64,000 nucleotides of DNA from Sediminitomix flava (GTDB lineage: Bacteria > Bacteroidota > Bacteroidia > Cytophagales > Flammeovirgaceae), in assembly GCF_003149185.1 (NCBI RefSeq), contig NZ_QGDO01000006.1, positions 62,001-126,000 of the forward strand. Direction: 5' to 3'. Shown here piece after piece: positions 37,489 through 62,165 of the stretch (its first letter is position 1; each line of letters starts with the position of its first letter). The notes under the pieces are model-generated. The model worked only from the letters and a program-made list of their open reading frames with translations. It was not told the origin of the DNA and searched no databases. The position numbers and the translations under genes are program-made.

Positions 37489-38313
37489 ATGATGGGTAAG
37501 ATTAGAAACTTGGCATTCACTATTTTCAGTTTTTTGAGTTTATCGTTATTATCTGCTTGTTCAGATAGTAGTGATGGAGACATAAATATTGCCTCTGATT
37601 TTGAAAACTCACGTACGTACTTTTCCACCAGTACGAGTGTAGAATTAGAGGTTGTTTATGAACCAGATGCAGCACCTTTGACAGAAGATACATTTGGAGG
37701 TGGAATACCGATTTGGGGAATTACACAAGCAAATATTGAAGAGGTATTTTCAGATAGACCCTTACCTGTATTTGTAAATGTACCAACCTCTTTAAGTCAA
37801 ATGACTCAAGTTCCAACTCAGAATAAAACAAGGTGGACAGTAGAAGACATCTTGCAGTTTACAGATGATTTCAGAAGAAATCGTTCTTCAGCTATTCAGA
37901 CCTATTTCTTTGTAGCATTTGTAAACGGAATTTTTGTGAATAATGACGGAGTGGAACAGCCCTCTACAATTGGGCTAAATGTTACAGGAACGCCAATCTG
38001 TTTTATTTTTAAAGATGTGGTGAGTGCTGGGTCTTCTGGTGATAATAATGCTCTCGTAGCTTTTTTAGAACAATCGACTTTAGTTCATGAACTTGGTCAC
38101 GCTTTTGGTTATGTAAATAATGGTATTCCTCTCGCTTCTGACCATTGGGATGAAGAAAATGGAGCACATTGTACCAATGAAAACTGCGTGATGTTTTGGT
38201 TAAATGAAGGGGTGAGAAATCTGACACAATTTGTTGAGCAGTATATGGACTCTGGAAGTCTGATTCTTTATGGCGAAGAGTGTATATTGGATGCAAGGGA
38301 ATATTTGCCTTAA
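37489..38313 (+). CDS. Zinc metallopeptidase-like lipoprotein, archaemetzincin-type motif
   Basis: A 274-residue lipoprotein with lipobox LSAC followed by SDSSDGD. The zinc motif HELGHAFG starts at H200. About 30 residues later comes AHCTNENCVMF, which copies the HCxxxxCxM part of the archaemetzincin signature (HExxHxxGxxHCx4CxM), with an inserted loop between. Metzincins of this kind cleave peptides; the present protein would act outside the cytoplasm. The second Cys pair of classic archaemetzincins is not evident, so it is a divergent or separate metzincin family. Single gene, no terminator seen. Confidence 0.75.
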   Translation: MMGKIRNLAFTIFSFLSLSLLSACSDSSDGDINIASDFENSRTYFSTSTSVELEVVYEPDAAPLTEDTFGGGIPIWGITQANIEEVFSDRPLPVFVNVPTSLSQMTQVPTQNKTRWTVEDILQFTDDFRRNRSSAIQTYFFVAFVNGIFVNNDGVEQPSTIGLNVTGTPICFIFKDVVSAGSSGDNNALVAFLEQSTLVHELGHAFGYVNNGIPLASDHWDEENGAHCTNENCVMFWLNEGVRNLTQFVEQYMDSGSLILYGEECILDAREYLP

Positions 38314-38818: not shown

Positions 38819-39328
38819 ATGCCCAAATACCTAATCATAATCCTACTATTTACTCGCTTTTTAGCTAGCGCTAGCTCACCTCCTCAAATTGTGTCCTCAG
38901 AAATAGGTATTAATGGATTGACCTGTTCTCTGTGCAGTCAGAGTGTGGAATATGCACTCAAGCAACTCCCTTTTATTGATAAGGTAGAAATGAATTTGAG
39001 CGAAACTACCGCGCTTATTTATTTCAAAGGAATTGGACGAGTAGCACCCGATCAAATAGCTAAAGCCGTTCAAGATGCAGGTTTTTCCCTCAGATATTTA
39101 AATCTAAATGTGGTTTTTGATCAGCAAGAAGAGCCTTGTATCGAAATCGCTTCTTATCAGTATTACCTCCTTTCGACAGAACAGCAAACCTTGAATGGTA
39201 CAATTAGCATTCAATTGTTACATCAAGATTTTTTATCCCGAAAAGTCTTTAAGCAATGGAAAGAAAAACTCCAAAATACAACTCCATGCCACACTACATC
39301 AAATACCTATTTTGCTGCCTTACTTTAA
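38819..39328 (+). CDS. Exported heavy-metal-associated (HMA) domain protein
   Basis: A 169-residue protein with a signal peptide (IIILLFTRFLASASS), then an HMA domain about residues 28-92 with the metal-binding GLTCSLCSQSVE (CxxC). The remaining ~75 residues are unlike known domains and end in a Cys/His-bearing tail. It probably binds Cu+ or a similar ion in the periplasm. Its 3' end overlaps the start of the following outer-membrane protein gene by 43 bases, so the two are coupled. Start ATG 38819 preferred over 38812, which is out of frame. Confidence 0.8.
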   Translation: MPKYLIIILLFTRFLASASSPPQIVSSEIGINGLTCSLCSQSVEYALKQLPFIDKVEMNLSETTALIYFKGIGRVAPDQIAKAVQDAGFSLRYLNLNVVFDQQEEPCIEIASYQYYLLSTEQQTLNGTISIQLLHQDFLSRKVFKQWKEKLQNTTPCHTTSNTYFAALL

Positions 39329-40239
39329 TCATATCAATAAATGGTGCTAATGCGCAAGAGCTATTTATTCTCAATGATGCTGCTACGCCTATGCCCAAAG
39401 GTGTTTGGGGCGTTAGAGGACAGGTGGAATATTATGAAGAAGGTACAGCCCAAAGATATATGACTTCTGTACGTCTGATGTATGGTGCATTCTCAAAGAC
39501 ATCTATTTATTTGACGCTTACAGGAAGCAATCATCATGGGAGTAAGCTAGAAGACGATTTTATTAGTCATACGCATTCGGGTTCTGGATTAGCTCCTGAA
39601 TATCCTTTTGCTTTTGCAGGAATTCATCTTTTCGGGAAATACAGTTTTTTATCTTTAGATGAACAGAACAGGCATTTCAGAATGGCAGCTTATGGCGCAA
39701 TTTCATCTTCAAATGCCGCACATGATGAAACAGAACCGCGCTTGATGGATGATACAAGTGGGGGAGAATTAGGGCTAATCACAACGTGGCTCAATAAACG
39801 CTTTGCTGTCTCTCTGACTTTAGGTGGTATTTTACCTTTAGCATACACAGAAACACAATTTCCGAATACCATTTATGAACGTGATGTGGAACTTCAATTC
39901 GGAAGGGCTGTCAAGTATAATCTATCTTTTGGTTACCTTCTCTATCCTAAAAAATACAAGGATTACGAACAAGCAAACTATAATGCTTATGTCGAATTTT
40001 TAGGAAAGGCTTTTGAAGATGCTGTTGTACTTTTTGATGGAGAACCACAAGAACTACAAACCGCTTTTTTGAGACAAGGACATTATGTCGAAATGCATTT
40101 AGGGATTCAGAAAATCATCAGATCGAAGAGCAGAATAGAACTTTCTGTAGGTTTTAGTTTGATTAATGAAGCTCTTATTCATCAAACACCAATTGTGAAC
40201 TTAGCCTATCAAGTATTTTTATTTAAGGAAAGAAAATAG
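39286..40239 (+). CDS. Outer-membrane protein coupled to the HMA protein
   Basis: A 317-residue exported protein; the signal peptide begins at the ATG 39286 (MPHYIKYLFCCLTLI), though the frame opens ten codons earlier. The mature part is beta-strand-rich (TSVRLMYGAFSKTSIYLTLTG, RIELSVGFSLINEALI) with repeated aromatic residues, consistent with a transmembrane barrel. The overlap with the HMA gene suggests a metal-linked function such as uptake or efflux of the bound ion, which is inference. No similarity to TonB receptors. Confidence 0.65.
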   Translation: MPHYIKYLFCCLTLIISINGANAQELFILNDAATPMPKGVWGVRGQVEYYEEGTAQRYMTSVRLMYGAFSKTSIYLTLTGSNHHGSKLEDDFISHTHSGSGLAPEYPFAFAGIHLFGKYSFLSLDEQNRHFRMAAYGAISSSNAAHDETEPRLMDDTSGGELGLITTWLNKRFAVSLTLGGILPLAYTETQFPNTIYERDVELQFGRAVKYNLSFGYLLYPKKYKDYEQANYNAYVEFLGKAFEDAVVLFDGEPQELQTAFLRQGHYVEMHLGIQKIIRSKSRIELSVGFSLINEALIHQTPIVNLAYQVFLFKERK

Positions 40240-40676: not shown

Positions 40677-40990
40677 TACAAGAGGCCGTATTCCTTTACG
40701 TCAAACCCGAATTGACCACACAATTTGAGAAAGATTTTGTAGAAGCAAGTCAATATATTTCCTCCATTGACGGCTATATCTGTCATAGTTTACAGCGATG
40801 TTTGGAGCAAGAAAATAAATATCTGCTTCTGGTAGAATGGACGAATCTAGAAGCACATACCATTGGCTTTAGAGAATCGGAAGTTTATCAGAAATGGAAG
40901 AAAATACTCCATCATTATTATGAGCCATTTCCAGTAGTGGAACACTTTGAGATGGTCTTTAAACAAGCTAAAAAATGCTATGATTTTTAG
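40673..40990 (+). CDS. Antibiotic biosynthesis monooxygenase (ABM) domain protein
   Basis: A 105-residue dimeric ferredoxin-like ABM fold: QEAVFLYVKPELTTQFEKDF opening, then a central GYICHSLQRC strand and a YLLLVEWTNLEAH strand with the family Trp. ABM proteins act as quinol monooxygenases, heme-degrading or unknown. It overlaps the previous gene by 4 bases. Nothing in the neighbourhood identifies a substrate. Confidence 0.82.
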   Translation: MIQEAVFLYVKPELTTQFEKDFVEASQYISSIDGYICHSLQRCLEQENKYLLLVEWTNLEAHTIGFRESEVYQKWKKILHHYYEPFPVVEHFEMVFKQAKKCYDF

Positions 40991-41290
40991 AATATATATC
41001 CGTTGCATCGGACATTTATTTTCTATAAAAAAAACACTACTTTTATCGAAACTAATGACTGGATATTTTTTGATTATTTAAAACTATCAGATAATCATTT
41101 GGTTGAGTTTTATTGCTTGTTCATTTTTTATACTAAACAATATTTTATCTCTATTTGCTGAATATCTGCTTCTGAGAGGTGTATCATTAAACGATATGTT
41201 ATTTAGATATACACTTACAGTCGATTACTAAACATTGTGCACAGAATGTAGGAAGTGTGGTTTTAATCTAAAAATGTCTCATAAGATGCT

Positions 41291-41333
41291 GTGATACATT
41301 TTTTTAGTTTTGGGATTTCTGGTGATACATTTT
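41291..41333 (+). repeat. Direct repeats GTGATACATTTT flanking a promoter box
   Basis: Two exact 12-base copies 31 bases apart, about three helical turns, on either side of the TAGTTTTG box. A regulator pair or a duplicated site is possible. Confidence 0.45.
41305..41312 (+). promoter_or_regulatory. Candidate -7 box of the S8 protein gene
   Basis: TAGTTTTG fits TAnnTTTG, placed between two direct repeats; no clear TTG at -33 was found. It would give a leader of about 155 bases. Confidence 0.4.
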
Positions 41334-41376
41334 CTTTTTCACTTTTGCTCATAATGAAGCTATATACAGACTCATT

Positions 41377-41427
41377 ATGCTGATACCTATTCCATTACCA
41401 CCACCTTGGAGTCTGGTATATTTTTAA
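41377..41427 (+). CDS. Possible proline-rich leader peptide
   Basis: A 16-codon frame reading MLIPIPLPPPWSLVYF then stop. Three consecutive Pro after alternating Ile-Pro could slow ribosomes. It is followed by a 6-bp hairpin before the S8 gene, in the layout of a translational attenuator. Speculative: no ribosome-binding site is obvious and the length is small. Confidence 0.25.
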   Translation: MLIPIPLPPPWSLVYF

Positions 41428-41434
41428 TCTTAAT

Positions 41435-41451
41435 CTCTACTGATGGTAGAG
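41435..41451 (+). other. Hairpin before the S8 protein gene
   Basis: CTCTAC-TGATG-GTAGAG pairs perfectly over 6 bases, 20 bases upstream of the ATG; candidate regulatory stem. Confidence 0.35.
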
Positions 41452-41470
41452 TCCCAAAACTATATTTTTA

Positions 41471-42595
41471 ATGATGAAATTTTTTTTAAGAACACTCACA
41501 GTTATCTCGCTAGTTATTATTGGTTTTTCTTGTAGTCAACAAGAGGAATTAAAACAGACGACAAACACAAATTTATCAGATTATATCATTAACCTGTCTT
41601 CTGATTTTGAAGGTGATTTGACAGGTTTATCAAATGTTCTTGGCTTAGACGAAAGTGCAATTACTGCAAATTATGATTTACTAAACACAGTTGTTGTAAA
41701 GCTTACAGAAGAGCAAGCGGATCGTTTAGCAGGACATCAGTTAGTAGATGCTATTTCATTGGATGAGAAAGTGGAATTTGACTTTTCTCAAACAATCAAT
41801 ACTGCAAATGTTTCAAGTGTAAACTCAGGATTCCCTTGCGAACTACCTGATTTTTACGCAGATGAATACATTGGGCCTGGTATGAAAAATAAGGCATGGA
41901 TTTTATCTACAGGAATTAATGACCATAAAGATCTAAATGTGAATAGAGCATTGGAAGCAAACTTTATTGGCGGCTCTAATTACGATATTTATGGACATGG
42001 AACAGCAATAGCTGGTATTGTAGCTGGGAAAATTTATGGCATAGCTAAAGGAGCTGAAGTTGTTTCTGTAAAAGTTTTAACAGATGCAGGCTCAGGTTCT
42101 ACCTCAGGAATTATTGATGCCCTTAATTATACGGTTGGTCAGATTATCAATACAGGAACAGCAGATGTTATTGTGTTACCAATTGGAGGCGGTAAAAACT
42201 CTGCTTTGAATTCCGCTGTAAATGCAGTTTCAGCTGCAGGGATTAGAGTAGTTGTACCTGCAGGAAATTCAAATTCAAATGCATGTAATTTTTCACCAGC
42301 TAGTGCAGAAGGCGATAATGTATATACAGTTGGAGCTGTAGATTATAGTAATACATTGGCTCCTTATAGTAACTGGGGGATTTGTATCGATCTTGTGGCT
42401 CCAGGAGGTCCTTATACTACTTTAAGTAATACTTCTACTAATGGTTATTCAACTGCTTATGGTACATCTTATGCATCAGCATATGTAGGTGGTTTATTCT
42501 TACACACACTTCCTGGAGATACACTACCAACTAGTGACGATTATAATAAGAGAGGAACACCTACAGTAGCCCCAAGTATTGTACAGTGTAAATAA
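41471..42595 (+). CDS. S8 (subtilisin) family protein with altered catalytic Asp, lipoprotein
   Basis: A 374-residue lipoprotein (IIGFSC lipobox). Residues about 30-120 resemble an inhibitor-I9 propeptide. The catalytic domain has H176 (YGHGTAIAG), the oxyanion Asn in VVVPAGNSNS and S333 (YGTSYASA), but the position of the catalytic Asp in the DTGI motif reads S146 (AWILSTGIN). A neighbouring Asp lies four residues on (NDHKDL). The protein may be inactive, use another acid, or bind peptides without cleaving. Codons at 41906-41908 are unambiguously TCT. The leader region is unusually long and structured. Confidence 0.8.
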   Translation: MMKFFLRTLTVISLVIIGFSCSQQEELKQTTNTNLSDYIINLSSDFEGDLTGLSNVLGLDESAITANYDLLNTVVVKLTEEQADRLAGHQLVDAISLDEKVEFDFSQTINTANVSSVNSGFPCELPDFYADEYIGPGMKNKAWILSTGINDHKDLNVNRALEANFIGGSNYDIYGHGTAIAGIVAGKIYGIAKGAEVVSVKVLTDAGSGSTSGIIDALNYTVGQIINTGTADVIVLPIGGGKNSALNSAVNAVSAAGIRVVVPAGNSNSNACNFSPASAEGDNVYTVGAVDYSNTLAPYSNWGICIDLVAPGGPYTTLSNTSTNGYSTAYGTSYASAYVGGLFLHTLPGDTLPTSDDYNKRGTPTVAPSIVQCK

Positions 42596-42621
42596 TTAGA
42601 GCTTATCAGGTATCAGCATAG

Positions 42622-42669
42622 GCATAAAAACAGCTCAGCTTTAGAAAAGAAGTTGAGCTGTTTTTATGC
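42622..42669 (+). terminator. Long-stem terminator after the S8 protein gene
   Basis: GCATAAAAACAGCTCA pairs with TGAGCTGTTTTTATGC, a 16-bp perfect stem extended by a further 3 bp, with the T-run inside the right arm. Confidence 0.75.
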
Positions 42670-42670
42670 T

Positions 42671-42709
42671 AAAAAAAAATTCCCTAACATACAGGGTATG
42701 CAGGGAATT
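42671..42709 (-). terminator. Terminator of the DUF5689 lipoprotein gene
   Basis: AATTCCCT (42678-42685) and AGGGAATT (42702-42709) with inner CATAC/GTATG pairing, followed on the minus strand by a long poly-T. Confidence 0.8.
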
Positions 42710-42747
42710 GAAGTTTGTTAGTTTGTTTATTAAAGTGGTTCTACTGA

Positions 42748-44040
42748 TTATTCTTCGTAGAACGTAATATAATTCAAGTTAAATGTTGATGTCGCTCCAG
42801 TAATTTTTGATCCCACATATCTGAAAGCGATATAGACATTCTTATTCGCATAGGCAGAGAAATCAATATCTTCAAGAGGAGTCCAAGCTTGGGCTTTAAG
42901 ATCCCCAGACTTAACAACCGCAACTGGTTCACCCCATGCGTTTTTATCTATTTCTAATTCATCTGGATTATATGTTTCCGAGATGTAGATTTCTAATAAT
43001 GTATGAGGCTCAGTAAGTGAAGGAGTTGTTTCTCTTAGCATCAACTCTGCTTTAGGTGCCGAATATCCCGATAGTGAAATAGGGTCTTCCGAAATTAACC
43101 AAGTCACATTCTGAGCGGCGTCAACTCCGCCGTAATATGCCGATGCAGAAACATAACCAGATTCACCCATCCACGAAATCTTTCCATGCTCGATGATGTT
43201 TTGCCAGCCTTCAAATTCAGTATCCTTAAACTTCACATCAGCGAAATCTTCTCGATAAAAGATATTGTAATCAGTACGAGGCTCGTCTAATTCTACATCT
43301 TCTACCTCATTTATATAAAGGCCATATTCACCATCTACTTTTCCAAGAATTGCAGTTATTGAACCTTGTCCATTAGGCAAAGTTTGAGAAGCAAAATTAG
43401 CTGAGGCATTCGTGAATACATATTTTGTGCCTCCAGTAGGTCCTTCCAAAGTCCTTTTTGTTGGCTCATCACCAGCTTCGGCGTAACTCATTCCTACTTC
43501 AACAAATTGTGCTCTATTGATCTTGACAAGGCTACCTACAAGAGTATCGCTCAATACTGTAGTAGGGAAAATTTCATGTGCTTCAATCGTATTGCTAGCG
43601 CCAGTTCTTGTAAAGTGATTGCGGACTTCGGTTTCAGTGATTCCTCGATATGAGCTATCGCCACTACCTTCATCATAACCACCAATTTCAACACCATTTT
43701 TAGCGTCTTTATTGAAGTATAAGCCTTTTGTACTAATCTTGATTTCTTCTCCAAGTACAAAATTCTCATATATTTTATCTTCATCAATATAAATACGAAT
43801 ACCTCCTGTCGAGTCTTGTAGATAAAGGCTATTCGCTAGGTTTCCAGAAGCATCATTTCCAATCACAACCCCAGTTACAAAACTTGAATCTGATACTACA
43901 CCATGTGCTCTATTCTTGAATGACTTAATATCGTATTCCAATACCGGAATCGTCTCATCATCATCGTCATTACATGAATAAATGAATAAGGGTAGTGCTA
44001 GAAGTAGATAGATAAGTCTCTTTGAAATTGTGTTTGTCAT
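42748..44040 (-). CDS. DUF5689 lipoprotein with choice-of-anchor/jelly-roll C-terminal domain
   Basis: A 430-residue lipoprotein starting at the ATG 44040 (signal ending YSC followed by NDDDDE); the frame begins nine codons earlier. Residues about 25-235 fit a DUF5689-type domain with an OB-like fold (FVTGVVIGNDASGN, NSLYLQDSTGGIRIYI). The C-terminal ~190 residues (FADVKFKDTEFEGWQN, VYIAFRYVGS) resemble choice-of-anchor J / MAM-like jelly rolls used to bind glycans or proteins. Function unknown; probably surface exposed. Single gene with its own terminator. Confidence 0.75.
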   Translation of the reverse strand: MTNTISKRLIYLLLALPLFIYSCNDDDDETIPVLEYDIKSFKNRAHGVVSDSSFVTGVVIGNDASGNLANSLYLQDSTGGIRIYIDEDKIYENFVLGEEIKISTKGLYFNKDAKNGVEIGGYDEGSGDSSYRGITETEVRNHFTRTGASNTIEAHEIFPTTVLSDTLVGSLVKINRAQFVEVGMSYAEAGDEPTKRTLEGPTGGTKYVFTNASANFASQTLPNGQGSITAILGKVDGEYGLYINEVEDVELDEPRTDYNIFYREDFADVKFKDTEFEGWQNIIEHGKISWMGESGYVSASAYYGGVDAAQNVTWLISEDPISLSGYSAPKAELMLRETTPSLTEPHTLLEIYISETYNPDELEIDKNAWGEPVAVVKSGDLKAQAWTPLEDIDFSAYANKNVYIAFRYVGSKITGATSTFNLNYITFYEE

Positions 44041-44187
44041 CACTTTACTGTTGGTTAAACCGTTCAATTTTCAGTAAGAGAGACAAAGTTTTTCTAAAAT
44101 TCGTTGTACTGATTTAGTTTCTTTTGCAATTGGATAGCTTTAAAATAGCTCTATACCAAGATAGGTAGGAAAAAAGAAGAGTAAACG

Positions 44188-56445: not shown

Positions 56446-57774
56446 TTATTCGTTGATTGTGATCGTTAATTTACCATCATAATAAGTGGTCTCAAGATCA
56501 ACATCAGCAATTTCAGTACCTGGGTCATAGCCATTCCAGTAGATATCAATTTCTACTTTTCCTGTAGCAGGATCATATGTACCATTTGAAGAAGACATGA
56601 TCCAATAATCATCGCCATTACTTTCTCTAGTTCCGTAAAGTTGCTTAGGAATAGAAACTGTGCCATTCTCTTCATCGATTACTAGTTCGAATGAACCTAC
56701 GAATAGGTAAACAGCATCACCCGTGATTTGAACTCTATCACAAGCTAAGCTTACTGGCTCTGCAGCAGAACCATCAGTATCTGTTCCACTGTATGCATCT
56801 GCATCAAAGAAATCTAGATAGTCAAGTGTAAGAGAGCTACCGATCAACATTTCACCTAAGCTAGTACAAGCTTTAAATGCACCCAATGAAATAGTAAGCT
56901 TACCATCATAGAATGAATCTTCAAGATCTACTTCTGAGATGTCAGTACCTCCAGCGTAACCATTCCAGTAAATGTCAACGTCAATTTCACCTGTTGTTGG
57001 ATTATAAGTACCATCTGAAGAAGACATGATCCAATAGTCATCGCCATTGCTATCTCTAGTTCCGTAAAGTTGCTTAGGAATAGAAACTGTACCATTTTCC
57101 TCATTGAAAATCATTTCAAAAGAACCAACAAAAAGAGCAACAGCATCTCCAGTGAATCTGATACGGTCACACTCTAAAGAAGTTGGTTCAAGTGCAAGAC
57201 CATTTTCATCTGTACCACTATAAGCATCAGCATCATAGAAGTCTAAGTAGTCTAAAGTAACAACTTGATTTAAATAAAGGTCAGATACAGAAATACACGA
57301 TTCATATTCTGGGAAGTCATCGTTCATTAGCATAACTGAAGCTGATGAATAAGAATCTGCAGTACCAAGACCAACAGTTGCTCCAGTAGCTCCTGTAAGA
57401 CTTACAGTTACACTGATATTTTCATCAATTAAATCATTATCGATTGCTTCTAGTTGAATAGTACCAAGGTATTCACCAGAACCCAATGTAACAGTTCCTC
57501 CAGTTACATCTTTCAATCTAGATTCCCAACCATCGGCACCCGTAATAGCATAAGTTACACTAACACTTCCAGAAGCATCTGTAGATGTTAATCGAACTGG
57601 GATTTGAATTTGTCCTGCAGTTCCATCAACTGATTCTGTAATGGTGAAGCTTGTTTCAGTAAGAGAAACGTATGCATCACCGCTGTAAATTACATCCGTA
57701 TGTTCTTCACATGCCGCTAGACCTAGCGCCATTGTGGCACCAAAAAATAGCGATTTGATATATTTTTTCATCAT
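56446..57774 (-). CDS. Surface lipoprotein with duplicated domain, third gene of SusCD operon
   Basis: A 442-residue lipoprotein (lipobox LAAC, start MM). Residues about 30-150 form a Calx-beta-like domain. Residues about 160-298 and 303-441 are two copies of one domain with a 143-residue period: each contains TLDYLDF(Y/F)DADAYSG, SIPKQLYGTR, DDYWIMSSS and DIYWNGY. DNA is nearly identical over parts of the copies, so the duplication is recent. It lies 25 bases after susD and probably binds the glycan or peptide substrate of the SusCD pair. The family is not recognised beyond that. Confidence 0.72.
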   Translation of the reverse strand: MMKKYIKSLFFGATMALGLAACEEHTDVIYSGDAYVSLTETSFTITESVDGTAGQIQIPVRLTSTDASGSVSVTYAITGADGWESRLKDVTGGTVTLGSGEYLGTIQLEAIDNDLIDENISVTVSLTGATGATVGLGTADSYSSASVMLMNDDFPEYESCISVSDLYLNQVVTLDYLDFYDADAYSGTDENGLALEPTSLECDRIRFTGDAVALFVGSFEMIFNEENGTVSIPKQLYGTRDSNGDDYWIMSSSDGTYNPTTGEIDVDIYWNGYAGGTDISEVDLEDSFYDGKLTISLGAFKACTSLGEMLIGSSLTLDYLDFFDADAYSGTDTDGSAAEPVSLACDRVQITGDAVYLFVGSFELVIDEENGTVSIPKQLYGTRESNGDDYWIMSSSNGTYDPATGKVEIDIYWNGYDPGTEIADVDLETTYYDGKLTITINE

Positions 57775-57799: not shown

Positions 57800-59194
57800 T
57801 TATTGCCACATTGGAGATTGAACCAAGTTTGGATTTACAATCAATTCTCTTCTTGGAATTGGGAATACCCATCTTTTATCTCCAGCAGGTAGGTTATTAA
57901 CAGTAACCTTTGGCTCATCAGCCATAGCACTTCTATCTAAGTCCTTACCCAAACGTTTGAGGTCATAGAAACGATGACCTTCAAAAGCTAACTCTCTTCT
58001 TCTTTCATCCAAGATTTCTTGCTCACTAAGAGAAGTAAGGTTTGCAACACCTCTGTTGGCTCTCAACGTATTTAGTCTTGTTAGAGCTTGAGTGGCGTTA
58101 TTTGTTCTGAAGTGTGCTTCAGCACTGATTAAATACATTTCACTAACTCTAAGGACATCTAGAGATCTATTTTGAAGAAATGCTCCACCATCGTTAGTAG
58201 AGAATTTTTTGACTAAAGTACCAAGAGTAGCATCCTCTAAGAAGAAAGCATCATATCTAGCATCACCAGCTTCGTATAGATCAATTAACTCTTGAGAAGC
58301 TCTTCTCGTTACACCTGCTTCATTCGCAGCCCAATATCCTGTAATGTATTCATCATCTACTTTACTGAAAGCTCTGAAAAGAACTTCTCCTTCACTCACA
58401 CTACTCCAATTTGAGACAAAAGCATCAGCTCCTAAAAGTGAAGTCTCAGTAATCACGTCATCAGCATATTTTGCAGCATTGGCATAATCTCCAGCATAAA
58501 GTGCTACACGTGCAGCAAGAGCTTTTACACTAACTTCATTGAAACGGTAGATATCAACAGCGCCTTTTCCACTTAAAAGCGAAATAGCTTCATCAAGATC
58601 TGCGAAGATTTGATCATATACTTCAGCGACTGTATTTCTTGAAGGGTAAGAAACTTCAGAAGCTAACATTACTGGAATACCTGAATTTGCTTCAGAATGA
58701 TTTCGATCTAATGATGTACCAAAGTTTTTCAGAAGATCAAAGTGTCCCATCGCTCTCAAAGCAAGAGCTTCTCCTCTGATTTGTTCCTCTAGATACGCGT
58801 CTTCACCTGTAAATTCTTCAAGTTTAGCTATAGTGAAGTTAGCTCTGTCGATTAAGATGTAACCATCAAACCACGCATTTTCTAATCCTCCACTGATCAC
58901 TGTGAAATCAAAGTTACCAAAGATAAGTACAGTACCTCCACCAGTACTTGGTGTGTTGTATACATTATCAGACATCATTTCAGGGATATTCATACTGTAG
59001 TGCAAGTAGTCTGCCCCTACCTCAATAATTGAGTTGTATGAACCAATCAAGGCTTTCTTAACATCCTCTACAGATTGGAATGCATTTAATTCCGTCTGAC
59101 TTTCAAATGGCTCTTCTTCCAAAAAATTCTCACAACTGCTAAAAGCCATAGAAGCAGCCATAAGTGCTATGATCGATTTATTTATGAATTTCAT
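57800..59194 (-). CDS. SusD/RagB family outer-membrane lipoprotein
   Basis: A 464-residue lipoprotein with lipobox FSSC and the SusD fold: EEEPFESQTELNAFQSVEDV opening, TPR-like helices, and the C-terminal ELAFEGHRFYDLKRLGKDL and WVFPIPRRELIVNPNL segments typical of the family. SusD caps the SusC barrel and binds oligosaccharides or peptides. It is encoded 19 bases after susC. Substrate cannot be predicted, since no glycoside hydrolase or lyase is encoded in this window. Confidence 0.95.
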   Translation of the reverse strand: MKFINKSIIALMAASMAFSSCENFLEEEPFESQTELNAFQSVEDVKKALIGSYNSIIEVGADYLHYSMNIPEMMSDNVYNTPSTGGGTVLIFGNFDFTVISGGLENAWFDGYILIDRANFTIAKLEEFTGEDAYLEEQIRGEALALRAMGHFDLLKNFGTSLDRNHSEANSGIPVMLASEVSYPSRNTVAEVYDQIFADLDEAISLLSGKGAVDIYRFNEVSVKALAARVALYAGDYANAAKYADDVITETSLLGADAFVSNWSSVSEGEVLFRAFSKVDDEYITGYWAANEAGVTRRASQELIDLYEAGDARYDAFFLEDATLGTLVKKFSTNDGGAFLQNRSLDVLRVSEMYLISAEAHFRTNNATQALTRLNTLRANRGVANLTSLSEQEILDERRRELAFEGHRFYDLKRLGKDLDRSAMADEPKVTVNNLPAGDKRWVFPIPRRELIVNPNLVQSPMWQ

Positions 59195-59213
59195 ATTTAT
59201 TCTCTTTAAGGTT

Positions 59214-62165
59214 TTAGAAAGTCAAGTCAACACCGAATGTAAGTACCTTACTCAATGGGTAAGCGTTGTTTACATTAGTACTTCCTGTACCGTTATTTGT
59301 TGACTGAACAGCCGTTGACATTTCAGGGTCAATACCCGTGAAAGATGTGAAAGTATACAAGTTCTCTCCTTGAGCGTAGAATCTAGCTTTTTCAACACCT
59401 AGTTTCTTTGTCCAAGTTTGAGGAAGTGTATATGCCAACGAAAGGTTTTTCAATCTTAAGAAAGAAGCATCTTCCCAATGGTCAGTTGTTGCGAATAATG
59501 CTTGACCTGACTCTGCTTTAGGGTAAGCAGAAATGTCTCCTGGCTTTTGCCAAGAATCTAACAGTTTAGTTGAGTGGTTTTGATCTGCATAAAGCACTCT
59601 TTCAATCTCAACTCTATCCCAGTTTAGTTTTGTTGCTCCTTGCTCCCAGTTGAAAAGAGCTCTAAGCTCAAGTCCTTTCCATGTGAACGTAGTTCCAAAT
59701 CCACCAAACCAAGGTGCTTCAGTAGTTCCAAGAACAATTCTTTCAGCTTGGTTGATATCATCAACAATGCTTCCATCAGAATTTCTGAAAAGTAAACGAC
59801 CAGTAGCAGGGTCTACACCTACTTTATCGTAAGCTCTAGCTAAGAACAATTGCTCTCCTTCAATATTTGCAAGTTCATCAACTTGAAGTTGTCCAACACC
59901 TCTGTATTCTACACCTTCTTCATTCAACTCAACTGCTTTAGACTGATTACGAGTTAGGTTAGCAAAAAGTGAAACTCTCAAATCTTGAGTTAAGTTAAAC
60001 TCAGAATTTAATGTAAGCTCAACCCCTTGGTTATTCAAGTGAGCATTGTTTCTTGTTTGACTGCTGAAACCAGAAGTGTAAGGTAGTGGCGTATTGATGA
60101 ATGATTCAAAGGAGTTATTGTTGTAGTAGTTGATACTACCTCCAAGTTTTCCTCCGAATAAAGCAAAGTCAACACCAGCATTCAATTGCTTAGAAACTTC
60201 CCATTGTAAGTCTGGGTTTGAAGGCTTATCTCTGTATAAACCAGCTCTACCATTATAACTGATAGGGCTAAGAGTTGCTAGAGAACCGTATCTGCTAATT
60301 GCTCCTTGGTTACCAACAGTACCATAAGATACGCGAAGCTTAAGGTTGTCAATCAATTCTGAATCTTGAAGGAATGCCTCGTCAGAAAGAACCCAACCAG
60401 CACCAATACTGTAGAAATCACCCCATTTTTTGTTTTCACCAAATACAGAAGTACCATCTCTACGATAAACCCCTCTTAAGATATATTTTCCTTTGTAGTC
60501 ATAATCAACATTTGCGAAATAAGACATTTGAGTAAAACGCTTATCATAAGCACCTGTAACACTTGGTTGGAAAATGTCAGGAGAATGTAATGCAGGTGAA
60601 ACGACATCAGTGAATCCATAAGCATCAAATCCTTCTGTAATACCATCTTCCAAAATATATTCTTGGAAAATACCAGCCGAAATTGTGTGGTCACCGAAAG
60701 ATTTATCGAATTGTAGAGCACTTGTACCTGTCACTAAATAATCTTGATAGTTACGAACACTTAGGCTTCCTTTATCACCAGGAGTCAAGTTTGCGTAAAG
60801 GCTATTAGGGGAAATAGCATCTTTTGTACGCTCTTGGTCGTATTCAACACCTGTTCTTGACCAAACTTTCAAGAAGTCAGTCAATTCATATGTAAGCTTC
60901 AAACTAGAAACAATACCTAGAAGAGAACTTGAGTTCTCACCTTTATCAATTCTTTCAAATGCATTTGAACCGTTGTAGTCAAGTGGAAGATACTCTCCGT
61001 TTTCATCTTGACTTTGGTAGTATGGAAGCATTGTAAGTACATTGTATGCATCATTTCTATAAATGTTATCGATCGTTGCAATACCCACTTGTGTTCTTAG
61101 GTCTACATCTAATCGTCCCATTTTTTGAGAAAGGTTCATACGAACTGTACCTCTTTCCATACCTGTTTTACGAACTACACCTTCTTGCGTGAAGTAGTTA
61201 CCTGAAATATAGTATTTGCTATCATCATCACCACCTGAAAGACTCAATTGGTGTGATTGCGTAATACCTGTACGATAGAACTCATCAAACCAGTTAGAAG
61301 TAACATCTGTATTTGGCTCTTGAAGCATGTAGCCATAACTTCCTGGTGCATATGTAGGTCCATCTTGAATCATTTCTTCAAACTGCTCTCTTTGTTCTGA
61401 ATCCATCATGTCGAATCCATTTGTTGTAGCTTCAGCAAAACCCATATAAGAGTTAAGTTTTAGAGTAGCTTTTTCAGAACCTGCTTTTGTAGTAACAACT
61501 ACTACACCATTAGCACCTCTAGAACCGTACATAGCTACTGCAGAGGCATCTTTCAAAACCTGATAAGAGCTAAAGTCGTTAGGGTTAAGAGTTGCGAAAG
61601 TTCTTCCGTCTACTTGTACCCCATCTACAATAAATAAAGCTTGGTTAGCTCCAGCTAAAGAACCTGTACCTCTAATTTTTACAGAAGCGGCAGCACCAGG
61701 TGCTTTAGAGTTCATGTTTACTTGCACACCGGCTACTTGTCCTTGAAGCGCTTGTTCAAAAGTAGGAACTGGTCTTTGTTCAAGTGCTGTAGCGTCTACA
61801 ACAGCTACAGTAGAAGTCATTTTTTTAACGTCTTGTGATGAGTAACCATCAACAACGACTTCTTGTAATTGAAGAAGATCTTCTTCAAGAGTAATTTCAA
61901 AATTAGTTTGATTACCTATCTCTACTAGTTGGGTCTTATAACCTACAAATCTAACTTCGAGAGTTGTAGCCCCAGCTGGTACCGATAACTTAAATTCACC
62001 ATCTATCCCTGTAACTGTACCTGTTGTTGTGTCTTTAATAAGTACAGAAACTCCTGGCAATGGATAAGTTCCATCGCTAACAGTACCTGCGATGAACCTT
62101 TCTTGTGCTAATCCTGCTGCGCAAAATGTTATGAGCAGAAGAATGGTAGAAAATAGTTGCTTCAT
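59214..62165 (-). CDS. SusC/RagA family TonB-linked outer-membrane protein
   Basis: A 983-residue TonB-dependent transporter. The signal peptide (FSTILLLITFCAAGLAQ) is followed by a carboxypeptidase-regulatory-like domain (SDGTYPLPGVSVLIKDT), a plug with LFIVDGVQVDGR and VAMYGSRGANGVVVVTTK, and a 22-strand barrel to the end (LTFGVDLTF). There is no STN domain, so it is not an anti-sigma-linked receptor. It imports oligosaccharides or peptides with the SusD partner. Slightly short for the family but complete. First gene of a three-gene operon; the promoter lies in the long gap to the right. Confidence 0.96.
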   Translation of the reverse strand: MKQLFSTILLLITFCAAGLAQERFIAGTVSDGTYPLPGVSVLIKDTTTGTVTGIDGEFKLSVPAGATTLEVRFVGYKTQLVEIGNQTNFEITLEEDLLQLQEVVVDGYSSQDVKKMTSTVAVVDATALEQRPVPTFEQALQGQVAGVQVNMNSKAPGAAASVKIRGTGSLAGANQALFIVDGVQVDGRTFATLNPNDFSSYQVLKDASAVAMYGSRGANGVVVVTTKAGSEKATLKLNSYMGFAEATTNGFDMMDSEQREQFEEMIQDGPTYAPGSYGYMLQEPNTDVTSNWFDEFYRTGITQSHQLSLSGGDDDSKYYISGNYFTQEGVVRKTGMERGTVRMNLSQKMGRLDVDLRTQVGIATIDNIYRNDAYNVLTMLPYYQSQDENGEYLPLDYNGSNAFERIDKGENSSSLLGIVSSLKLTYELTDFLKVWSRTGVEYDQERTKDAISPNSLYANLTPGDKGSLSVRNYQDYLVTGTSALQFDKSFGDHTISAGIFQEYILEDGITEGFDAYGFTDVVSPALHSPDIFQPSVTGAYDKRFTQMSYFANVDYDYKGKYILRGVYRRDGTSVFGENKKWGDFYSIGAGWVLSDEAFLQDSELIDNLKLRVSYGTVGNQGAISRYGSLATLSPISYNGRAGLYRDKPSNPDLQWEVSKQLNAGVDFALFGGKLGGSINYYNNNSFESFINTPLPYTSGFSSQTRNNAHLNNQGVELTLNSEFNLTQDLRVSLFANLTRNQSKAVELNEEGVEYRGVGQLQVDELANIEGEQLFLARAYDKVGVDPATGRLLFRNSDGSIVDDINQAERIVLGTTEAPWFGGFGTTFTWKGLELRALFNWEQGATKLNWDRVEIERVLYADQNHSTKLLDSWQKPGDISAYPKAESGQALFATTDHWEDASFLRLKNLSLAYTLPQTWTKKLGVEKARFYAQGENLYTFTSFTGIDPEMSTAVQSTNNGTGSTNVNNAYPLSKVLTFGVDLTF

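Follow-up and report, generated by a model that had tools for sequence, protein, structure and literature searches.

Subtilisin-like pseudoproteases, in which the subtilisin fold is combined with an incomplete catalytic triad, are already known in bacteria, CspC and CspA of Clostridioides difficile being examples (PMC6636752, available portion). Those with a known role are few, the bacterial ones that we recognised in our literature search being the Csp proteins of C. difficile and a relative. As described in the available portion of PMC6636752, CspC retains Asp105, but T170 and G485 occupy the positions of the catalytic His and Ser; it carries a jelly-roll insertion of ~130 aa in its subtilase domain, leaves its prodomain uncleaved and acts in signalling. 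PIMMS2 is a Plasmodium subtilisin-like pseudoprotease whose P. falciparum orthologue is without the Asp (PMC5520436, in part). The corresponding residue of subtilisin has been removed by engineering: D32G enzymes become active when nitrite or azide is supplied, and azide takes the position of Asp32 in a D32A variant (PMC7935941, in part). Pro225Ala is the second mutation of subtiligase (S221C/P225A; PMC7921005, in part).

The gene analysed here, which lies in a 64-kb stretch of Bacteroidota DNA (hereafter the window), specifies a putative lipoprotein of the S8 family in which Ser (S146) stands in place of the catalytic Asp. Like CspC and CspA, this S146 lipoprotein pairs the subtilisin fold with an incomplete triad. 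One of its three catalytic residues is lost, and not one of those lost in CspC, since only the Asp is missing; it also does not contain the jelly-roll insertion. Both the removal of Asp32 in the engineered D32A and D32G subtilisins and the Pro225-to-Ala exchange of subtiligase have counterparts in the S146 lipoprotein, whose residue 337, an Ala, corresponds to subtilisin Pro225 when mapped by motif offset. Those enzymes are laboratory-made, however, with activity demonstrated in the available parts of the reports, whereas the S146 lipoprotein is known from its sequence. The initial annotation held that such a pseudoprotease would be new for a surface lipoprotein. With CspC and CspA on record (PMC6636752, available portion) the claim of novelty was too strong, and a narrower one stands: among the titles and abstract openings returned by our literature search, we recognised no Bacteroidota surface-lipoprotein pseudosubtilase and no natural Asp-to-Ser subtilase.

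Our reading, to which we assign a probability of roughly 0.6, is that the S146 lipoprotein is a membrane-anchored S8 pseudoprotease of the proteinase-K branch that retains an uncleaved propeptide and acts by binding.

An S8-fold lipoprotein with Ser in place of the catalytic Asp

The open reading frame at 41471-42595 (+) encodes 374 aa from an ATG start, and its GC content is 36.3%, compared with 36.4% for the whole window. Membership of the S8 fold family is indicated by a Pfam Peptidase_S8 score of 85.2 bits (cut-off 21.8), and the I9 propeptide profile scores 20.4 bits, slightly below its cut-off of 21.2. When solved structures were searched with phmmer, the best match was the proteinase-K-like 2b6n (E 6.4e-36), with residues 126-343 matching 21-234 of that structure and no large insertion interrupting the alignment. 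The features to which we refer are as follows.

41471..42595, + strand: gene of the 374-aa S8-fold lipoprotein, stop codon included (ORF, Pfam, phmmer)
41471..41533, + strand: lipoprotein-like signal peptide with C21 (GFSC), followed by SQQEE (sequence; C21 invariant)
41576..41782, + strand: I9-like propeptide domain, residues ~36-104, folded in the model (Pfam, pLDDT, structural alignment)
41789..41881, + strand: linker, residues 107-137, of low model confidence (alignment, pLDDT)
41882..42505, + strand: subtilisin-fold catalytic domain, residues ~138-345 (Pfam, phmmer, model)
41906..41908, + strand: S146 replacing the catalytic Asp (ILSTGI; phmmer, alignments)
41996..41998, + strand: H176, intact catalytic His (GHGTA; phmmer on the HGT His, alignment)
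42173..42190, + strand: substrate-binding strand VLPIGG (235-240) replacing NMSLGG (alignment)
42257..42268, + strand: PAGN (263-266), with oxyanion Asn266 intact and A263 changed to Pro (alignment)
42467..42484, + strand: intact nucleophile S333 (Ser of GTS), with A337 and Y338 replacing a near-invariant Pro and His (alignment)

C21, the presumed lipoprotein Cys of the signal peptide, occupies an invariant column in a 30-protein alignment. Bacteroidota export signals follow a pattern of polar and then acidic residues (PMC5080379, in part), which the CSQQEE of the S146 lipoprotein resembles. Lipidation is predicted, surface exposure is plausible because SQQEE fits that pattern, and the protein is probably located at the cell surface. 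The linker, which is probably disordered judging from the model, does not contain the near-invariant Trp that relatives in the 30-protein alignment carry within WG[IL]xR[IV].

The S146 lipoprotein shares its fold, His, Ser and oxyanion Asn with proteinase-K-like S8 enzymes of solved structure (2b6n, 1s2n/1sh7 and 8c4x), and its C272 and C305 align by phmmer with the Cys residues of 'DAC' and 'GSC' in 1s2n, a pair that we take to form a disulfide. It differs from these enzymes in the Asp-to-Ser replacement, in having VLPIGG for NMSLGG and GTSYASAY for GTSMASPH, and in its lipid anchor.

Active-site motifs are altered along with the Asp

The initial annotation placed S146, within ILSTGIN, at the Asp of the DTGI motif and described H176, S333 and the oxyanion Asn as intact, and both observations are borne out. 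In phmmer alignments to proteinase-K-like structures ILSTGI lies opposite VIDTGV with S146 on the Asp of 'DTG', an assignment that the family alignments share, and the same phmmer alignments place the His, the Ser and the oxyanion Asn. Thus, of the Asp-His-Ser triad of active S8 peptidases, the His and Ser are present and a Ser occupies the Asp column, and the oxyanion Asn is retained as N266. Residue 146 is encoded by TCT, which GAT or GAC can reach only through at least two base changes, so a lone miscalled base does not explain it.

In order to ask how far the rest of the catalytic domain has diverged, we defined near-invariant columns as those at least 95% conserved among 29 aligned relatives, of which the catalytic domain contains 43. 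The S146 lipoprotein departs from nine of them (D146S, V180I, V221T, N235V, S237P, L238I, A263P, P337A and H338Y) and keeps the other 34, H176, N266 and S333 among them. When each of the 29 relatives was left out in turn, the worst departed from 4 of 42 columns, two departed from 2, nine from 1 and seventeen from none. Eight of the nine departures fall inside active-site motif stretches, to which 22 of the 43 columns belong (hypergeometric p 0.013, a modest result for stretches that we defined ourselves). Judged from these alignments, the loss of the Asp is not a single local mutation, and the active-site wall is altered as well. Beyond the Asp, eight near-invariant columns have changed, and seven of these belong to active-site motifs; this supports the pseudoprotease reading, which the initial annotation had offered as one of two possibilities.

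The other possibility offered there, a protease that uses another acid, has found no support so far. Under this explanation the third catalytic residue would be an acid from elsewhere in the protein, or Ser146 itself would serve in a Ser-His-Ser arrangement. D151 or D154 could be displaced by a one-residue deletion that directly follows STGIN; these residues, however, are acidic in 24 of 29 and 29 of 29 relatives, respectively, and the relatives have the Asp. The acids that are unusual for the family (E162, E196, D216 and D282, acidic in none or one of the 29 relatives) all lie outside the motifs, so that no replacement acid is evident within them, and we regard a different third residue as improbable.

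Most relatives retain the Asp

We did not find a close orthologue of the S146 lipoprotein in any of the sets searched, which extended from its own genome to the class and included GTDB contigs and viral contigs. The genome itself encodes, besides the S146 lipoprotein, two other S8 proteins with the Asp, at 41% and 39% identity. The genus is represented by one genome, the source itself. At the family level 15 of 18 genomes (own included) gave a match, none of them close. In the order 130 of 390 genomes did so at E<=1e-25 (own included), with the best-scoring other match, among those listed, at 41% identity, and in the class 3 of 395 did so at E<=1e-34 (own included, among the matches listed), up to five candidates per genome being scored in the order and class searches. 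The matches listed for family, order and class share at most 47% identity, over part of the protein. Exact peptide patterns run against GTDB contigs gave 499 pattern stretches, none of which was confirmed; viral contigs gave 0 of 4; and no match in phage or plasmid records reached 60% identity, the four plasmid records examined all having DTG. A profile scan contributed the best 80 of 377 confirmed matches.

The Asp is close to universal among these relatives. All other rows carry it in our first alignment, as do 141 of 142 rows in a larger one. The collected loci contain 287 ORFs matching at E<=1e-5, which reduce to 276 distinct rows once repeats and the S146 lipoprotein are removed; 270 of these have Asp in the catalytic column and six have Ser. 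Asp, His and Ser are all present in the 59 distinct rows (59/59) obtained from 60 extra stretches of the same order, which were deliberately taken as a part of the order-search matches listed. The contrast between the S146 lipoprotein and the 270 of 276 relatives that keep the Asp is a further argument for a pseudoprotease. The initial annotation had reasoned that a majority of homologues with Asp would point to a local mutation. The majority is indeed what we observe, but the conclusion does not follow from it, because the substrate-facing wall has changed along with the Asp.

Another genome of the order encodes tandem S8 genes on the minus strand of one locus (86-1336 and 1429-2694). One S8 gene of this locus is changed at 4 of 42 near-invariant columns, one of which is the Pro that follows the nucleophile, but keeps the Asp.

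A second group of Asp-to-Ser subtilases in actinobacteria

The six Ser rows correspond to five genes from three actinobacterial genomes (L109, L149/L206 and L150). One of them, brought up by the profile scan, specifies a Rhizocola hellebori protein with AYILSTGI (L109:4234-5736) and lies immediately downstream of another S8 gene, which has a full triad (locus L109:2446-5736), and tandem pairs of Ser-type genes occur in two more genomes of the same family (L149/L206 and L150). The Ser is fixed across all five genes, none of which has kept the oxyanion Asn, and one of them is also without the His and the nucleophile. A profile built on the Ser-type genes listed many high-scoring S8 genes in 298 genomes of the actinobacterial order; the new loci taken from that search (L178-L205) had Asp in 29 of 29 rows and Ser in none, and genus-level searches for Ser-type genes yielded no further genome.

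Three changes are common to the S146 lipoprotein and the five actinobacterial genes: the Asp is Ser within ILS[TS]GI, SLGG has lost its Ser, and the fourth residue past the nucleophile is Ala instead of Pro. The SLGG Ser is absent in 2 of the 270 Asp rows, both remote and apparently shifted in the alignment, and Ala replaces that Pro in 3 of the 270. The LPIGGG of the S146 lipoprotein has a counterpart in the LPVGGG of one actinobacterial member. Unlike the S146 lipoprotein, the actinobacterial proteins combine S8 with a P-domain (all three members checked), have no lipoprotein Cys in the alignment, are without the oxyanion Asn and form a separate clade in the fuller of our trees.

The actinobacterial Ser-type genes, for which alone dN/dS was calculated (NG86), appear to be maintained. 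The three closest counterparts (L109b and the downstream genes of L149 and L150) gave dN/dS of 0.18-0.21 at dS 1.0-1.4, and the other seven of the ten pairs gave 0.25-0.46; dS among the Ser-type genes spans 0.76-1.46 and is thus near saturation. Comparisons with the intact paralogue gave 0.51-0.61. That these other Asp-to-Ser genes are maintained, with dN/dS 0.18-0.46 in all ten pairs, supports the pseudoprotease reading of the S146 lipoprotein. The recurrence of the replacement in five genes elsewhere also tells against a sequencing or assembly artefact, an explanation that the single genome invites. As an artefact would further have to account for two base changes at the Asp codon and for eight other near-invariant columns that change in frame, we give it almost no weight.

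Separate origins of the Ser in the two groups are favoured, not proven. In a first tree, which included the motif columns and no actinobacterial rows, the S146 lipoprotein stood beside proteinase-K-type rows from another family of its order, with weak support (86/70). A second, quick tree, from which motif columns were excluded and to which actinobacterial rows were added, grouped it with a set drawn largely from Bacteroidota and placed the Ser-type actinobacterial proteins in one clade (98) among actinobacterial enzymes. In this alignment (84 rows, 171 columns), a tree that forces the S146 lipoprotein into one group with the Ser-type genes could not be rejected (p-AU 0.438). After removal of 20 long, odd or near-identical rows and inclusion of propeptide columns (64 rows, 248 columns), the held-together tree was rejected (p-AU 0.0124), and the split between the side of the S146 lipoprotein and the rest received 100/99, with the bootstrap not settled. 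We stop short of calling the case proven because the row set was changed after the first test and because the branch of the S146 lipoprotein is very long (2.03, against a median of 0.32, in the fuller tree). A lipid-anchored Bacteroidota protein that has lost the Asp alone, together with a matching set of changes maintained in a second phylum, would be evidence that the path from protease to binding protein has been taken repeatedly.

The branch of the S146 lipoprotein is long in every tree, as would be expected once catalytic constraint is lost, and so supports a pseudoprotease. The same branch, together with the restriction of the gene to one genome among those searched, could instead indicate a gene in decay, in which catalytic function was recently lost and the protein is no longer selected; with no orthologue in the searched sets, a gene heading for decay would look alike. 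However, the frame of 374 codons is intact with its signal peptide and propeptide, 34 of the 43 near-invariant columns are kept, the long divergence has introduced neither stop nor frameshift, and the GC content matches that of the window to within 0.1 percentage points. We therefore consider decay unlikely. The retention of the full-length frame, signal, propeptide and predicted fold speaks for the pseudoprotease.

Predicted structure and a proposed mode of action

An AlphaFold2 model built from a 30-row alignment has a mean pLDDT of 78 and a pTM of 0.80. Block means of pLDDT are 89-96 for residues 141-290, 71-93 for 291-350 and 75-95 for the propeptide (residues 31-100), and fall below 50 for most of the 107-137 linker and for the C-terminal end. 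Residues 36-372 of the model align with unprocessed pro-subtilisins at Z 31-33. Structural matches were obtained with Foldseek and with a second aligner, whose top matches were PCSK9 chains, ProN-Tk-SP and unprocessed pro-subtilisin E (Z 33-34 over 299-311 residues, rmsd 3.2-3.5), and mature proteinase K-type enzymes tie with them at Z 32-33. The presence of propeptide-containing or unprocessed subtilases among the top matches, tied though they are with mature enzymes, is consistent with a pseudoprotease that keeps its propeptide. PCSK9, which at Z about 34 is among the best matches and tied with others, has a prodomain that stays on the domain, as we suppose for the S146 lipoprotein. PCSK9 differs in that it cleaves itself once and is not known to carry a lipid anchor.

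We propose that, without the Asp, the remaining His/Ser pair would be too weak for normal proteolysis, and that the protein would for this reason leave its own propeptide uncut. The propeptide would then stay docked on the domain, as the uncleaved prodomain of CspC, a protein that acts in signalling, leads one to expect (PMC6636752, available portion). The rebuilt cleft, or the surface formed by propeptide and domain, may bind a partner or a peptide rather than cleave it, and the S8 lipoprotein with a full triad encoded elsewhere in the genome (L002:1015-2214) could be an active counterpart.

Of the competing explanations, conditional activity has the widest reach. Residual or conditional activity is conceivable because, unlike the actinobacterial Ser-type proteins, the S146 lipoprotein keeps His176, Ser333 and Asn266. 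A small anion or a substrate carboxylate might fill the cavity left by the Asp, yielding a protease that needs a cofactor or accepts few substrates. Fluoride rescues an Asp-to-Ser mutant of glutamate dehydrogenase (PMC12018205, in part). Against this, other residues have been exchanged too, namely the Ser of SLGG, the Ala that precedes AGN and the Pro and His that follow the nucleophile; this exceeds what anion gating needs, and our literature search found no natural case; the chance of a conditional protease seems to us slim. A still bolder proposal is a long shot: that Asp-to-Ser subtilases form a natural class, which arose at least twice, once as a Bacteroidota lipoprotein and once as tandem secreted proteins of actinobacteria, each time through replacement of Asp32 by Ser and of Pro225 by Ala and disappearance of the Ser from SLGG. 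The lipoprotein, with its His, Ser and Asn retained, would then be a protease or acyl-transferase gated by a cofactor and, like the engineered D32 variants, would need a small anion or the carboxylate of its substrate to become active. The S146 lipoprotein does offer a clean natural test of anion rescue for a subtilisin site without Asp.

Flanking sequences and neighbouring genes

The initial annotation also described a leader region with a promoter box between direct repeats, a Pro-rich mini-ORF and a hairpin. The repeats of this leader, and a separate hairpin downstream of the gene, are as follows.

41291-41305 and 41322-41336, + strand: pair of 15-nt direct repeats, 93% identical (repeat scan)
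42626..42665, no strand assigned: hairpin with perfect 12-nt arms AAAAACAGCTCA / TGAGCTGTTTTT and a loop of 16 (read in sequence)

The leader elements exist as described: TAGTTTTG lies at 41305-41312 between the two repeats and shares one base with the first of them, and a proline-rich mini-ORF, MLIPIPLPPPWSLVYF, starts at 41377. As promoter or structure they are not above chance level. TAnnTTTG boxes number 72 on both strands of the window against 77.8 expected by shuffling, with no excess; the 41320-41480 segment has a folding z of -1.52, and 18 of 200 shuffles fold as well; sigma-70-like sites in 40950-42760 are at background level (7 against 8.3); and no Rfam family reaches threshold in 40900-42800. 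The downstream hairpin, which is not listed by a scan permitting only loops of 3-8, separates the S146 lipoprotein gene from a convergent DUF5689 lipoprotein gene, and it probably ends transcription of both.

That convergent neighbour (42748-44067, -) encodes a lipoprotein-like DUF5689 protein with a choice-of-anchor J domain. On the other side, 37489-38313 (+) encodes a putative lipoprotein with HELGHAFG and, later, CVMFW, which has only sub-threshold Pfam Reprolysin matches and which we take to be metzincin-like by motif. Two more genes encode a heavy-metal-associated (HMA) domain protein (38819-39328, +) and, after it, a protein with no Pfam or NCBIfam match (39256-40239, +). Further along the window lies a SusC/SusD-type pair (57800-62165, -), families whose biology points to Bacteroidota, and the gene adjoining it (56446-57774, -) contains an internal repeat visible by eye.
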